From positions 1 to 50,623 of the forward strand of contig WHTT01000047.1 in assembly GCA_009377605.1 (NCBI GenBank): a stretch of DNA of 50,623 bases. Reading direction: 5' to 3'. This stretch comes from Luteitalea sp. (GTDB taxonomy: Bacteria > Acidobacteriota > Vicinamibacteria > Vicinamibacterales > Vicinamibacteraceae). The notes under the pieces were generated by a model. It saw only the letters and a program-made list of their open reading frames with translations, was not told where the DNA came from and did no database searches. The position numbers and the translations under genes are program-made. Shown here one piece after another: positions 5,477 to 38,159 of this stretch; position 1 is the first letter of the stretch; every line of letters begins with the position of its first letter.

Positions 5477-5487
5477 GTGCGAGACTA

Positions 5488-6237
5488 TCAGACGTCGAAC
5501 TCCGCGACGAGCGGCGCATGATCGCTGGTGCCGAATTCCGCGAGGACACGGGAGCTCCGGGTCGCTCCAGCCACGGGCGTTGCCGCCAAGATGTAGTCGA
5601 TGCGCCAGCCGATGTTCCGTTGACGCATGCTGCGCCACGGCGCCCACCAGGTGAACAGGCCATCGTTGTCCGGATCGAACGTCCGGCCGACGTCGACGAG
5701 ACCCTGATCGAGCACACGCTCGAACAGCGCACGCTCGTCTGGACGTTGGCCGACGGCGTTGGCCTTCCGCTCCTTCGGATGGACGTCCATCTCCGCTCGC
5801 GCGACGTTCATGTCACCGCACAGCACGACCGATTCCCCTTGTGTCCGGGTTGCCGCCACGTAGTTCCCCATGGCTTCGAGAAACCGCAGCTTGGCTGGAA
5901 AGTCCCGTCCGCCGTTGGGCACGTAAACGGACGCAATCGTGAGACCTCCCATGGAAGTCGTGGCAATCCGATGCTCGACGTTGAAGTCGGGATGGGAGAA
6001 CTCCGGCTGGCGCGCGCTGTGCGCGCGCCGAACCAGCAGCGCGATGCCCGAGTACCCTTTGCCGCCATGCCAGTAGCTCCAGTAGCCGGCCATCTCGAAG
6101 AGGGCAATTGGCACGAGATCCGCCGACGCTTTGATCTCTTGCAGGCACGCCACATCAGGCGCCTCGCGGGCGAGCAACTCGGCAACCTCACCGGCTCGCT
6201 TCCGAATACCGTTGACGTTCCACGACAGGATTTTCAT
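5488..6237 (-). CDS. xthA: Exodeoxyribonuclease III (AP endonuclease)
   Basis: The 249-residue protein begins MKILSWNVNGIRKR and shows the full exonuclease-phosphatase fold signature. Metal and catalytic residues visible are Asn7, Glu34 (ACLQEIKA), the GDMNVA Asp/Asn motif, and the C-terminal GTSDHAPLV Asp-His. WRIDYILAA is the conserved segment before the end. In E. coli this enzyme cuts at abasic sites and removes 3' blocking groups in base-excision repair. The start at 6237 is fixed by alignment to the family; an upstream extension to 6267 would add an atypical leader. It is convergent with the GMC gene and separated from it by a palindromic repeat. Confidence 0.95.
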   Translation of the reverse strand: MKILSWNVNGIRKRAGEVAELLAREAPDVACLQEIKASADLVPIALFEMAGYWSYWHGGKGYSGIALLVRRAHSARQPEFSHPDFNVEHRIATTSMGGLTIASVYVPNGGRDFPAKLRFLEAMGNYVAATRTQGESVVLCGDMNVARAEMDVHPKERKANAVGQRPDERALFERVLDQGLVDVGRTFDPDNDGLFTWWAPWRSMRQRNIGWRIDYILAATPVAGATRSSRVLAEFGTSDHAPLVAEFDV

Positions 6238-6340
6238 GTCGACCAGTCCATGGCGGGTACATAGCACAGCTCGTCCGCCCCTGCGCTACGATGAGAATGC
6301 AGATCGTGTCGCCATGGTCTGCACGTTCGGAGGGAAAATC

Positions 6341-7087
6341 ATGCACAAGCTCATCAAGAGCATCGCCCTGGTCGGACTCCTGTGTCTTTGGGGCTCGGAC
6401 GGCTTCGCACAGACCGTCGACGAGCTCGCTCGAAAGAACCTGACCGCGTTGGGCGGCGAGGCCGCATGGCGGCGCCTCGAAGCCATTCAGAGCAATGGCA
6501 CGATGACCGGTCCCGAAGGGCAGAAGGCGGAGCTCACGCTGTGGACCAAGCGCCCGAACTTGAGACGCCAGGATGTCCGCATCGACGATCAGATCATCAC
6601 GAACGCGTTCGACGGGAAAGACCTCTGGGTGCGTCATCCGCGCATGGGGGATAAACCGCAGCTCGTGACCGGCGAGGCTGCAGAGTCGGCGAGAGCCGAA
6701 GCGACCTTCGATCCGCCCTTCTTGGATTACGAGGAACGCGACATCGAGATCGACGAGCAGGGTACCGTGCAGGTCGACGGCAAGAGGGCGCACAAGCTGC
6801 AACTGTCTTATCCCGAGGGTCCGAGTCCCGTGCTCTACCTGGATGATGCAACGGGGCTCATTCTCCGAGTCGTCATGCAGGCCGAGGTCCAGGGCAAGAA
6901 GGTCGTGCGCGAGGAGCGCCTTTCGGACTGGCGAAAGGTCGACGGCATCATGCTGCCCTTTCGGACCGAGATGCTCATGAACGGCCGCCCCATGACGACC
7001 ATTACGCTGAGCGGCGTGAAGATCAATCCAGCCATCGACGACAGCTTCTTCCGGATGGAAGCCGCGGATCAGGAGGTCGAGCGCTGA
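6341..7087 (+). CDS. Secreted LolA-like outer-membrane-lipoprotein-sorting fold protein
   Basis: The product has 248 residues. It begins MHKLIKSIALVGLLCLWGSDGFAQ, a signal peptide, after a GGAGGG about 7 nt upstream of ATG 6341. The mature part opens VDELARKNLTALGGEAAWRRLEAIQSNGTMT and continues with a beta-rich domain including NAFDGKDLWV, APSPVLYLDDATGLILR-like and EERLSDWRKVDGIMLPF segments. This pattern belongs to the broad LolA/LolB-like beta-barrel group (DUF4292/outer membrane lipoprotein-sorting-like), common next to secreted peptidases in Acidobacteria. A true lipoprotein carrier role is not implied. It sits 66 bp upstream of a secreted alpha/beta hydrolase on the same strand and may share its transcript. 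Confidence 0.8.
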   Translation: MHKLIKSIALVGLLCLWGSDGFAQTVDELARKNLTALGGEAAWRRLEAIQSNGTMTGPEGQKAELTLWTKRPNLRRQDVRIDDQIITNAFDGKDLWVRHPRMGDKPQLVTGEAAESARAEATFDPPFLDYEERDIEIDEQGTVQVDGKRAHKLQLSYPEGPSPVLYLDDATGLILRVVMQAEVQGKKVVREERLSDWRKVDGIMLPFRTEMLMNGRPMTTITLSGVKINPAIDDSFFRMEAADQEVER

Positions 7088-7153
7088 TCGGCGTTCCTCA
7101 GGAAGTGCTGCCACTGGTGCCGGCTCGGTCGCTCTGGGCTATTATCGGTGGTC

Positions 7154-33757: not shown

Positions 33758-35113
33758 ATGCCCGTGAACAAGCGAACATTCCTGAAGATGTCGGCGGCCG
33801 TGCTGGCCAGCGCTGCTCTGCCGCGGGAGATCGAAAGCGCCCAAAACAGCACGGAGCGAAACTGGGCTGGCAACATCGAATACAGCACGGCGCAGATCCA
33901 CTCTCCCAAGACGCTGGACGAGGTCCGGCAGGTCGTGAAGCGGTGCCGCAAGCTGCGGGCGCTGGGCACCCGCCATTCCTTCAATCAGATCGCAGACAGC
34001 ACGGAAAATCTCGTCTCGGTCTGGCATCTCGACCAGGTCGTGTCGTTGGACAAAGCGTCACGGACGGTCACCGTCGGGGCCGGTATGCGCTACGGCGAGC
34101 TGAGCGAGTATCTGCACGAGAAGGGCTTTGCGCTGCACAACCTGGCTTCACTGCCGCATATCTCCGTTGCTGGCGCTTGCGCGACGGGAACGCACGGGTC
34201 CGGCGTCGAGAACGGGAATCTGGCCACGGCAGTGCTCGGGCTGGAGGTCGTCACTGCCGATGGCGAGGTCCTGACGCTATCGCGCGACAAGGATGGCGAT
34301 CGCTTCGACGGCACCGTCGTGGCGCTTGGCGGTCTGGGAGTCGTGACCGCGGTGACGCTCGAGATCCAGCCGACCTTCAGCGTGAGGCAGGACGTCTACC
34401 AGAACCTGCCAGTGAAGCAGGTGCGTGGGCATCTCGACGAGATCCTGGCGAGCGGCTATAGCGTCAGCTTGTTCACCGACTGGCAGGGGGACACGGTCAA
34501 CCAGGTCTGGGTCAAGACCCGAATCGGCGAGGAGACTGCCCAAACGGGAGGGCCCGAGCTATTCGGCGCGAAGCTTGCCGCGAAGAACTTGCACCCCATT
34601 GCAGAGCTCTCCGCTGAGAATTGTACCGAGCAGATGGGCGTCGCCGGGCCGTGGCACGAGCGGCTGCCACACTTCCGTCTGAACTTCACCCCGAGCAGCG
34701 GCGAAGAGCTGCAGTCGGAGTATTTCGTGCCTCGCGACCACGCACTGAAGGCGCTGACTGCCGTCTACGAGCTGCGCGATCGCATTGCACCACACCTCTT
34801 GATCTCCGAGGTGCGAACCATCGACGCCGACCGTTTCTGGATGAGCCCCTGCTACCAGCAGCCCTGTCTGACCATTCATTTCACGTGGAAACAGGACTGG
34901 CCCGCCGTCAAAGCGCTGCTTCCAGTGATCGAACAGGCCCTCGAGCCGTTCGACGTCAGGCCGCACTGGGGCAAGCTGTTCACGATCCCCTCGTCACGGC
35001 TGAGTGCCCGGTATCAGAGGCTACCGGCGTTTCGGGAGCTATTGGCCGCGCACGACCCTCAGGGCAAGTTTCGCAACGCATTCTTCGAGACGCACATCTT
35101 CGGCGGCGCCTGA
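33758..35113 (+). CDS. FAD-linked alditol-oxidase-like flavoprotein
   Basis: The 451-residue protein opens MPVNKRTFLKMSAAVLASAALP, a Tat-like signal (KRTFLK followed by a hydrophobic stretch). The FAD-binding PCMH domain includes RALGTRHSFNQIADST. His73 in GTRHS is the histidine that binds FAD covalently in the alditol oxidase/aldonolactone oxidase group. LHNLASLPHISVAGACATGTHGSG and VVTADGEVLTLSRD complete it. The C-terminal half (VRPHWGKLFTIPSSRLSARYQRLPAF) matches the D-arabinono-1,4-lactone oxidase/xylitol oxidase (AldO) group. It likely oxidises sugar alcohols with oxygen, releasing hydrogen peroxide. It starts 22 nt after the HxlR gene on the same strand and may be controlled by it. Confidence 0.92.
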   Translation: MPVNKRTFLKMSAAVLASAALPREIESAQNSTERNWAGNIEYSTAQIHSPKTLDEVRQVVKRCRKLRALGTRHSFNQIADSTENLVSVWHLDQVVSLDKASRTVTVGAGMRYGELSEYLHEKGFALHNLASLPHISVAGACATGTHGSGVENGNLATAVLGLEVVTADGEVLTLSRDKDGDRFDGTVVALGGLGVVTAVTLEIQPTFSVRQDVYQNLPVKQVRGHLDEILASGYSVSLFTDWQGDTVNQVWVKTRIGEETAQTGGPELFGAKLAAKNLHPIAELSAENCTEQMGVAGPWHERLPHFRLNFTPSSGEELQSEYFVPRDHALKALTAVYELRDRIAPHLLISEVRTIDADRFWMSPCYQQPCLTIHFTWKQDWPAVKALLPVIEQALEPFDVRPHWGKLFTIPSSRLSARYQRLPAFRELLAAHDPQGKFRNAFFETHIFGGA

Positions 35114-35122
35114 CGTGCGCGA

Positions 35123-35146
35123 TTCTATATTCCTTGAAATATAACG
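35123..35146. promoter_or_regulatory. Mo-box-like palindrome (candidate ModE binding site)
   Basis: TATATT (35126-35131), a 6-base centre CCTTGA, then AATATAACG (35138-35146). On the minus strand the right half reads CGTTATATT, the same as one half of the E. coli modA ModE site as I remember it. The TATA-N6-TATA spacing matches the Mo-box consensus. It lies 9-10 bp past the alditol oxidase stop and 41 bp beyond the 3' end of modE, not between modE and modA. An AT-rich bidirectional terminator is the alternative reading. Confidence 0.55.
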
Positions 35147-35186
35147 ACTCGTGTATGCTGGTGCGGGACGCCTACCGTGGCGGCCA

Positions 35187-35555
35187 CTACGCGGTCTGCG
35201 CCGTGCGCCGCTGCCGTGGGCGTCTGAGGCGGCGCTGCAATGCGGCCGCGTCCCGTGCGACCGCGCGGCGAGATGCGGCTTCCATGGCGTGGTAGCGGTT
35301 GATGATCTCGAGGCCGAACGGTGTGAGCGTGGCAGCTCCACCACGCCTGCCGCCGGCCAGCGTCCGGACGGCTGGCTCGCGGAACATCCGATTGACGCTG
35401 TCGACGAGCAACCAAGCACGACGATAGGACATATCCATCGCGCGCGCCGCGGCGCTGATCGAGCCGCAATCGCGGATCCCTTCGAGGAGCTGGACCTTGC
35501 CCGGGCCGATCCAAGCGTCTGGCCGGAAATAGACGCGCAAGAAGAGTCTCGTCAT
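35187..35555 (-). CDS. ModE-like regulator, DNA-binding domain only
   Basis: The 122-residue protein begins MTRLFLRVYFRPDAWIGPGKVQLLEGIRDCGSISAAARAMDMSYRRAWLLVDSVNRMFREPAV, the winged-helix N-domain of ModE (LysR-type HTH with GSISAAARAMDMSYRRAW). RTLAGGRRGGAATLTPFG follows. No molybdate-binding MOP domains are present, so it is the short ModE type, about half the length of E. coli ModE. It would control the molybdate genes that diverge from it. Its ATG (35555-35553) overlaps the modA ATG (35554-35556): both are read from CATG. A basic tail (RRLRRPRQRR) ends the protein. Confidence 0.88.
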   Translation of the reverse strand: MTRLFLRVYFRPDAWIGPGKVQLLEGIRDCGSISAAARAMDMSYRRAWLLVDSVNRMFREPAVRTLAGGRRGGAATLTPFGLEIINRYHAMEAASRRAVARDAAALQRRLRRPRQRRTAQTA

Positions 35556-36372
35556 GACGGCGCAATCCTACGCCAACCGTATCAGATCAGTACTGGCGTC
35601 AACGCTGAGAGAGACGTGCTGCGTGGTCCTCGTGTGGGTGGCGCTGACGACGTGTCTCGGGGCTCAGCAACCTCCCGCCGTCGCAGCGGCCGCCAATCTG
35701 AAGTTCGCGCTCGAAAAGATTGGGCGGCAGTTCGCCGCTCAGCAGGGAGAGGGCGTGAGCTTGATCTTTGGGTCCTCCGGCAATCTGACCCGTCAAATCC
35801 TCGATGGGGCGCCCTTCGAGCTATTTCTCTCCGCAGACGAGGCGTTCGTGACCAAGCTTGCCGATGCCCGCCTGACCCGTGATCGGGGCGTGCTCTACGC
35901 GCTCGGTCGCCTCGTGATCTTCGCGCCGGAGGGATCGCCACTCGAGACCGATGCGGAGCTCGAAGGGCTCCGCGCGCTGCTGGCGCGCGGCGGAAGCCAC
36001 CGATTCGCGATTGCCAATCCGGAGCATGCACCTTACGGGAGGGCAGCGGAGGCCGTGTTGCGCGCCAAAGGTCTCTGGGCGCCGCTGCAGCCGTCACTCG
36101 TCTTGGGCGAGAACATCGCGCAGGCGGCGCAGTTCGCGACCACCGGCAACGCCGTGGGCGGGCTACTTGCCTACTCGACCGTGCTGGCCCCGCCGCTCGC
36201 GGGCAAGGGCACCTACGCCCTGCTTCCCGAGGCCGATCAGCCGCCGCTGCGACAGCGGATGGTGCTGCTCGAACGTGCCGGCCCGGTCGCGGAACGCTTC
36301 TATCGCTATTTGCAGGCGTCCGAGGCGCGTGATGTGCTACGCCGGTATGGGTTCGCCCTGCCCGGCGACTGA
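35554..36372 (+). CDS. modA: Molybdate-binding periplasmic protein
   Basis: The 272-residue protein carries an N-terminal signal region (TLRETCCVVLVWVALTTCLGAQQ). The ModA core is PPAVAAAANLKFALEKIGRQF, LIFGSSGNLTRQILDGAPFELFLSADEAFVTKL and GENIAQAAQFATTGNAVGGLLAYSTV. GSSGN and the AQF segment line the oxyanion pocket in known structures. The signal may begin at a later start than ATG 35554, because the first 15 residues precede the hydrophobic segment. The ATG shares bases with the divergent modE start, so the operon promoter must lie inside or beyond modE. It is followed by modB and modC in the standard order. Confidence 0.93.
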   Translation: MTAQSYANRIRSVLASTLRETCCVVLVWVALTTCLGAQQPPAVAAAANLKFALEKIGRQFAAQQGEGVSLIFGSSGNLTRQILDGAPFELFLSADEAFVTKLADARLTRDRGVLYALGRLVIFAPEGSPLETDAELEGLRALLARGGSHRFAIANPEHAPYGRAAEAVLRAKGLWAPLQPSLVLGENIAQAAQFATTGNAVGGLLAYSTVLAPPLAGKGTYALLPEADQPPLRQRMVLLERAGPVAERFYRYLQASEARDVLRRYGFALPGD

Positions 36373-36394
36373 CAGGGTGAGAAAGCGATATCAG

Positions 36395-37063
36395 ATGGAT
36401 TGGACGGCGTTCACGCTCTCGATTCAGCTCGGTGCCGGGACGCTCGCCTTACTCCTGCCAATTGGCGTGGTCGTCGGCCGCATGCTGGCCGTGCGCCGTT
36501 TTGCGGGAAGGGGAGCAGTCGAGGCGCTCGTGGCGCTGCCGCTCGTGTTGCCGCCGACCGTCCTCGGGTTCTATCTCTTGGTCGCGTTTGGCGCCCGATC
36601 GCCGCTAGGTCAGTTCTTTGCATCACTGACCGGCCAGTCGTTGGCGTTCAGCTTCGAGGGGTTGCTGCTCGCGTCCGTGCTGATCAACCTTCCCTTCGCG
36701 GTGCAGCCCATCCAGCGCGCGTTCGAGAGCGTTCCCGTCGACGTGCGTGAGGCCGCGGCCTGCTGCGGGATGCCGTGGTGGCGCGCATGGCTCGCCATCG
36801 AGCTGCCCCTCGCGTGGCCTGGCATCGTAACCGCTGCCGTGTTGACGTTTGCACACACGCTCGGCGAGTTCGGTGTGGTTCTGATGGTTGGCGGCAACAT
36901 CCCAGCCGAGACGCGCACGCTGAGCATCGCCATCTATGACCAGATGCAAGCGTTCGACGACCGAGGCGCGGGCATCATGGCGGCGACGCTTCTCGTCCTC
37001 GCGCTGGTAACGCTCGCCATGACCAACGCCCTGAGTCGTCGGGTTGGACGTCGGCATGCGTGA
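36395..37063 (+). CDS. modB: Molybdate ABC transporter permease
   Basis: The 222-residue protein has about five or six transmembrane helices. It carries the family motif EAAACCGMPWWRAWLAIELPLAWPGIVTAAVLTFAHTLGEFGVVLMVGG, the EAA loop that contacts the ATPase. VALPLVLPPTVLGFYLLVAFG is the conserved first-half segment of ModB. ATG 36395 (MDWTAFTLSIQLGAGTLALLLP) is used; a GTG at 36377 would add six residues. It starts 22 bp after modA and overlaps modC by 8 bases. Confidence 0.95.
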   Translation: MDWTAFTLSIQLGAGTLALLLPIGVVVGRMLAVRRFAGRGAVEALVALPLVLPPTVLGFYLLVAFGARSPLGQFFASLTGQSLAFSFEGLLLASVLINLPFAVQPIQRAFESVPVDVREAAACCGMPWWRAWLAIELPLAWPGIVTAAVLTFAHTLGEFGVVLMVGGNIPAETRTLSIAIYDQMQAFDDRGAGIMAATLLVLALVTLAMTNALSRRVGRRHA

Positions 37064-38159
37064 AGCAGCCATGTTGATGGTCGACGTCCAGCAGCGCGTC
37101 CCGATTCCATTGGACGTGAGCCTCTCGTGCGGTCCTGACGAGCTTCTGGCGGTGTTCGGGCCATCTGGCAGCGGCAAGACCACACTGTTGCGGTGTATCG
37201 CCGGCCTGCACCGACCGGTGCGGGGCCGCATCGCCTGTGCGGGGGAGATCTGGACGGACACAGAGTCTGGCCTGCACGTGCCGACGGAACGGCGGCGCGT
37301 GGGACTGGTCTTTCAGGACTATGCGTTGTTCCCGCACCTCACGGCTCGCGGCAACGTCATGGCGGCACTGGGCGAGCGGCGGCGACGGGAACGGCGCCAG
37401 GAAGCGGACCGTTGGTTGGCAGCGGTGCACCTGAACGGGCTCGAATCGCGGCGCCCCGCGGAGTTATCGGGCGGGCAGCGACAGCGCATCGCCCTGGCAC
37501 GTGCGCTGGCGCGCGATCCACAGGTTCTCCTGCTCGACGAGCCATTTGCCGCCATTGACCGGGCGATCCGGACGAAATTGCACGACGAGCTCGATCTCTT
37601 GCGGCGACGCGTGCACATTCCAATTCTGCTGGTCACGCATGATTTCCACGACGTCGTGCGTCTTGCGACGCATGTTCTCGTGATGGAGCAAGGACGGGGC
37701 GTTGCTGCTGGACCGATCGAGACCCTCACGAGCCGCACGGACATTCCCTGGTCCCGCCATGCGCTGGATGCGGGCAGCGTGTTCGACGGGCAGGTCCGCG
37801 CCCGTGAGCACGCGCGTGGGCTCGCGGACGTGCAGTTTCCCGGCGGCAGTCTGCTCGTGCCCGACCGAGGCCTACCCGTCGGCGCTCACCTGCGCGTGCG
37901 CATCCCCGCTCGCGAGGTCATTCTCGCCGTCACGCGACCCGAGGGGCTGAGCCTGCACAACATCCTGGAAGGCCGTGTCGCTGCTGTTGCCCAGGATGCA
38001 GATGAGCAACTCGTGCAGATTGCCGTCGGTGACGGACGGCTCCTCGCAGCGGTTACCCGCGATGCCGTCAACCGGCTAGCGCTCGCACCAGGAAGGCCAG
38101 TGTACGCACTGATCAAATCGTTGTCGATTGATACGTATGGTCCGCACGTCGCTGGTTAA
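37056..38159 (+). CDS. modC: Molybdate ABC transporter ATP-binding protein
   Basis: The 367-residue protein has Walker A GPSGSGKTTLLRCIAGL, Q-loop VGLVFQDYALFPHLT, signature LSGGQRQRIALARALARDP, Walker B VLLLDEPFAAID and switch His VTHDFHD. A C-terminal TOBE/MOP domain (about 290-365, LSLHNILEGRVAAVAQDADEQLVQIAVGDGRLLAAVT) is the ModC oxyanion-binding regulator region. The preferred start is ATG 37056, whose next codons carry the modB stop (ATGCGTGA); a TTG 4 codons upstream and an ATG at 37071 are possible. The molybdate operon ends at a hairpin directly after the stop. Confidence 0.94.
   Translation: MREAAMLMVDVQQRVPIPLDVSLSCGPDELLAVFGPSGSGKTTLLRCIAGLHRPVRGRIACAGEIWTDTESGLHVPTERRRVGLVFQDYALFPHLTARGNVMAALGERRRRERRQEADRWLAAVHLNGLESRRPAELSGGQRQRIALARALARDPQVLLLDEPFAAIDRAIRTKLHDELDLLRRRVHIPILLVTHDFHDVVRLATHVLVMEQGRGVAAGPIETLTSRTDIPWSRHALDAGSVFDGQVRAREHARGLADVQFPGGSLLVPDRGLPVGAHLRVRIPAREVILAVTRPEGLSLHNILEGRVAAVAQDADEQLVQIAVGDGRLLAAVTRDAVNRLALAPGRPVYALIKSLSIDTYGPHVAG

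Follow-up and report, generated by a model that had tools for sequence, protein, structure and literature searches.

How does an operator for the molybdenum regulator ModE come to lie beyond the far end of the regulator's own gene, and could it from there control the transporter operon on the other side? The window examined here, 50,623 nt of a Luteitalea sp. contig (WHTT01000047.1), carries modE on the minus strand (35187–35555) head to head with modABC on the plus strand (35554–38159), and the two ATGs overlap in a palindromic CATG. The operon encodes a molybdate-binding protein (modA, 35554–36372), a permease (modB, 36395–37063) and an ATPase with a TOBE domain (modC, 37056–38159; PF03459), and the three products match TIGR01256, TIGR02141 and TIGR02142, respectively, above their cut-offs. 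The predicted operator, or Mo-box, is a strandless palindrome at 35123–35146 in the tail-to-tail gap between modE and a gene for an FAD-linked lactone oxidase (ending at 35113). It lies 40 nt from the 3′ end of modE and 407 nt from the modA ATG, with all of modE in between. The first-pass annotation had described a box more than 400 bp upstream of modA, past the far end of a divergent modE whose start codon overlaps that of modA, and both parts of this description are borne out.

The starts of the two divergent genes were considered separately. An in-frame TAG five codons before the modE ATG means that modE cannot start further upstream, and a ribosome-binding-like TAGGAT ahead of this ATG is kept in a congener (genome G001). 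In the window, modA has no in-frame ATG before its signal peptide other than that at 35554; the congener's modA has additional in-frame ATGs 7 and 21 codons in, and its true start could lie slightly downstream. Surrounded by fast-changing signal-peptide codons of modA is a 33-nt block (35579–35611) with TTGACG on the minus strand and 27 of 33 positions identical in the alignment with G001, a candidate modE promoter whose role is speculative.

The palindrome reads TTCTATATT-CCTTGA-AATATAACG, and its arms, TATATT (35126–35131) and AATATA (35138–35143), enclose the spacer CCTTGA in a TATATT-N6-AATATA core spanning 35126–35143. The E. coli modA box has CGTTATATT as its left half, and the right half of the palindrome, which ends in the flank ACG, is the exact reverse complement of this sequence; the left flank TTC departs from CGT, so that one half-site is a perfect 9/9 and the other 6/9. 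The site is an inverted repeat of the CGnTATAT type with an N6 centre, deviating in the three outermost bases on the left. The exact core occurs only here in the whole genome (6,786,431 bp), and 0.01 matches per window would be expected by chance even with two mismatches allowed. A looser search (CGNTATATTN6AATATANCG, up to three mismatches) returned two genome sites, the Mo-box and one within an acetyltransferase gene, but a reversed control pattern also returned two, and the loose count alone therefore proves nothing. Because the loose 24-nt consensus did no better genome-wide than its control, a scoring matrix was built from 121 boxes near short-modE genes of other taxa, the window's genus excluded; resemblance to the E. 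coli box guided the choice of these boxes, and the matrix therefore retains some dependence on that consensus. By this matrix the site scores 25.1 bits, the second-best site of the window 1.7, and 3 Mb of simulated sequence contain nothing that equals it. The palindrome is thus almost certainly a real Mo-box, as predicted from its sequence, and the ModE-site layout with an E. coli modA half that had been recognized in it at first sight stands. Both the Mo-box and the short ModE belong to kinds already known, and neither is new. The matrix scan gave no second Mo-box in the window, near modA or elsewhere. A wider regulon was also considered for the genome and rejected, the sole other loose match being that inside the acetyltransferase gene, at the level of the control.

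The cognate regulator is a single-domain protein of 122 aa (ModE-S type). It is a winged-helix DNA-binding domain of the ModE type, matching TIGR00637 at E 3.4e-23 (81.6 bits, below the curated cut-off of 98.5), PDB 2ijl at E 2.2e-30 and E. coli ModE (1b9m/1o7l) at E ~2e-9, and a domain search returned no TOBE match in it; a full-length ModE, with C-terminal Mop/TOBE molybdate-binding domains, is excluded. Judging from a pN/pS of ~0.27 against G001, the ModE protein is kept under selection. The effector had initially been given as ‘ModE-Mo’, which is probably not the right picture for a regulator consisting of a DNA-binding domain only. From work in Agrobacterium, short ModE is reportedly believed to read cofactor status and not to bind molybdate itself.

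That relatives sharing the gene order should have the box in the corresponding position had been named beforehand as a check, and the box passes it in G001, the only such relative and the only congener in the comparison, so that the conservation concerns two genomes of one genus. The congener shares the overlapping ATGs, the divergent modE and a box past the modE 3′ end (contig 64, 10164–10187), which scores 22.0 by the matrix (next 4.0). The arms are identical and the spacer differs (TATATT-CCTTGA-AATATA versus TATATT-CCGCCA-AATATA). Over the block 35123–35162 the two genomes agree at 31 of 40 positions, the best of ~34,700 placements (next 22), and the sequence flanking this block on either side aligns only at chance level. 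Silent divergence between the species is 35–47% per site; identity as high as 31/40 would have P ~0.004 if these sites changed as fast as silent ones. Beyond the box itself, conservation is found on the modA side only, over ~16–18 nt (TCGTGTAT(G/C)CT(G/A)GTGC). Within modE, silent-site conservation is only slightly raised (pS 0.35 versus 0.40–0.47; Fisher P 0.07, not significant), and strong silent-site constraint in the gene was rejected.

To the left of the box the two genomes part. The neighboring gene differs between them, both versions reading rightward into the gap, and synteny breaks within ~15 nt of the left edge of the box and holds for 7.8 kb rightward. Since synteny is broken on the left and kept on the right, the Mo-box belongs to the mod side. 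The upstream block of the G001 contig corresponds to window positions 5485–7099, and the stretch from ~7,100 to 35,118 has no counterpart at the corresponding place there; by this alignment about 28 kb was gained or lost, and one boundary of that stretch lies close to the left edge of the Mo-box.

Control of modABC from the Mo-box is well supported. By gene order modABC is the only operon that the box could sensibly serve, since a box in a tail-to-tail gap has no leftward gene to serve. The conserved right flank (ACTCGTGTATGCTGGTGC, 35147–35164, plus strand; 14 of 18 positions identical in G001) is proposed as the modABC core promoter, and carries a −10-like hexamer that reads TATGCT in the window (35154–35159) and TATCCT in the congener. 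A consensus sigma-70 promoter was found around the box in neither direction, and the absence of a good −35 leaves the rightward direction unproven. Our preferred reading, to which we give somewhat better than even credence, is that the Mo-box is the modABC operator, that ModE-S represses a promoter at the box, and that modABC is transcribed with a ~400-nt leader antisense to all of modE. When molybdenum is sufficient (probably read as cofactor status), a dimer of the short ModE would bind the palindrome and block a promoter whose −10 lies at or just right of it (~35154–35159). When molybdenum or cofactor is scarce, RNA polymerase would start near 35166, a start site that we infer, and the transcript would run ~390 nt antisense through modE, cross the modE start region inside the first modA codons and continue through modABC. 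The leader so placed by the box (35166–35553, plus strand) would contain a Shine–Dalgarno-like AAGAAGAG for modA at 35538–35545. It has no match to any Rfam family and no known structured RNA, and a Moco riboswitch or other known RNA in it was rejected on that ground.

Short ModE proteins and boxes of this kind are associated across the loci compared. Known ModE systems share the parts of this locus and differ in their arrangement. In the modE/acrZ/modABC region of E. coli a ModE-type gene is likewise divergent from modABC, with the same 9-N6-9 box spacing and an identical CGTTATATT half. However, the K-12 modA box (CGTTATATTGTCGCCTACATAACG) ends 19 nt before modA in an ordinary intergenic region, whereas the box in the window is 407 nt away past the regulator gene, and E. 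coli ModE has the molybdate-binding domains that the regulator here is without. The ModE-S proteins of Rhizobiales such as Agrobacterium are single-domain, 50–60% identical to that of the window, and have the same box consensus ahead of modABC, but there modE is convergent with the end of the operon and one or usually two boxes lie close to modA, in contrast to the divergent modE and single distant box found here.

A search for further loci covered 162 genomes of the order, 193 of the class, 396 of the phylum and 80 of a wider collection, those outside the order being ranked samples and not a census. Among the order and class genomes only G001 has the layout of the window, and the loci of the phylum and wider collection are tandem, convergent or ordinarily divergent. 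With the window's genus set aside, in no other examined locus does the repressor gene have its own operator at the far end and the target operon at the near end. Elsewhere in the phylum, the same class included, the usual order is modE, box and transporter in tandem. In such loci (L011–L013, L128 and weaker ones) the box lies just past the 3′ end of modE, as it does in the window, and upstream of a mod or tup operon; there modE points at the operon, whereas in the window the unit is inverted and modE separates box from operon. The class-level outgroup G516 is likewise tandem (modE, box CGTTATACTCCCGGGTGTATATCG, modA). Within the order, G077 (ModE 61% identical) has modE beside moeA, and its box, CGGTATGTTATCAGAAACATATCG (L124:12453–12476), the only good one in 19 kb, is ~150 nt upstream of an operon for NuoE/F-like proteins and formate dehydrogenase, a molybdoenzyme. 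Two other divergent loci have a weak box between both starts (L038) or no box (L046).

Three further observations were made in this survey. At loci L014–L035 (e.g. L015:1869–1892) a short modE is in tandem with a tupA-like gene for a tungstate-binding protein, and the half of the box nearer modE is well preserved whereas the tupA half is degenerate; this may be a variant that responds to tungstate. Two records, titled Bacillus subtilis SK6B4 and Mycobacterium sp. KBS0706 (L066, L112), contain a modE of a type otherwise proteobacterial, and may be mislabelled or contaminated. In two genomes of the phylum (L016 and L021; G279 and G272) the modE match has an in-frame TGA, which may be a normal stop, the match overrunning the likely end of the gene.

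The layout of the window probably arose, to judge from these gene orders, by inversion of a modE–box unit within the widespread order modE, box, modA, as this yields exactly box, reversed modE, modA. A palindromic operator survives an inversion and a promoter does not, so that a rightward promoter would have needed either to arise on the modE side of the box or to be retained there. Such a promoter agrees with the conserved right flank.

What the arrangement would do to modE is a more speculative matter. Because transcription would reach modABC only by running backwards through modE, modE expression should fall when the operon opens, conceivably by polymerase collision, promoter occlusion and RNA pairing, and the resulting double-negative loop would make the return to repression sharper or later. 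The geometry, divergent genes with room for a leader overlapping all of modE, is that of the excludon described in Listeria, in which one gene set has a long 5′ leader that lies antisense to a divergent neighbor (PMC4179725). The likeness is one of geometry read from sequence. Here the gene covered by the leader would encode the repressor of the operon itself, and that repressor would act on the leader's promoter. In synthetic circuits, a repressor gene is expressed less, and the switching threshold rises, when an antisense promoter stands at its 3′ end, with weak promoters the most sensitive (PMC4731013). The proposed promoter in the window would likewise fire from the 3′ end of a repressor gene towards that gene's promoter. 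It would, however, itself be repressed by the product of the gene that it silences, and the output operon would be transcribed from it. A simple steady-state model gives bistability only with at least ~12-fold silencing at n = 2 or ~5-fold at n = 3, and never at n = 1. With these requirements, a mild shift of the threshold or a slower shut-off is more probable than a true bistable switch. The full loop would be built by gene order only: the repressor would shut a promoter located at the 3′ end of modE, and this promoter, once open, would both drive uptake and antisense-silence the repressor, giving a sharpened or hysteretic molybdenum switch. It is put forward as a tentative and rather doubtful proposal.

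It is quite possible, if short of an even chance, that promoter and operator are as proposed and that the overlap with modE is a neutral accident of the inversion, without measurable effect on modE. Leader RNAs that overlap neighboring genes are common, the layout is confined to a single genus with mild constraint only, and the steady-state model gives no switch at low silencing. Against neutrality, a repressor gene that is weakly expressed usually yields less when convergent transcription passes through it, weak promoters being the most sensitive (PMC4731013).

Transcription of modABC mainly from a promoter in the 5′ half of modE or at the modE/modA junction, with the far box a relic or minor upstream regulatory site, seems unlikely. 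The box has no good −35/−10 pair, the low silent divergence at modE codons 31–60 could hide an element, and modA of the congener could start 21 codons in, which would leave room for a short proximal promoter. Yet the junction is likewise without promoter-like sequence and without a second box, and a box and right flank that stay conserved amid unconserved surroundings are not a decaying relic. An unregulated promoter close to modA may exist. It is less probable again, and we think improbable, that the box controls a leftward transcript, whether a small RNA or an RNA antisense to the gene on the left, after inversion of the whole modE–box–promoter unit. In the tandem relatives the promoter does point away from modE (in L013, for example, TTGACC-18 nt-TATATT, ending inside the box), and inverting that unit whole would leave it pointing left in the window. 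However, a leftward start has no −35, the two species have different upstream genes, both read rightward into the gap, and modABC would be left without an operator although ModE is kept under selection. That the palindrome is a chance A+T-rich inverted repeat, as one other genome site meets the loose consensus by chance, is very improbable given a score of 25 bits against 1.7 for the next site, arms kept in the congener and a position linked to function.

If the start site proposed for the antisense modABC leader is true, the locus would be a natural version of a circuit until now made synthetically, in which the antisense promoter stands at the repressor gene's 3′ end, and would add feedback to it; modE output would be predicted to fall when modABC is induced. 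One inversion could then turn simple repression into a mutually antagonistic loop. If it is not true, the locus still provides a clear example of an operator that has stayed next to modE through an inversion.
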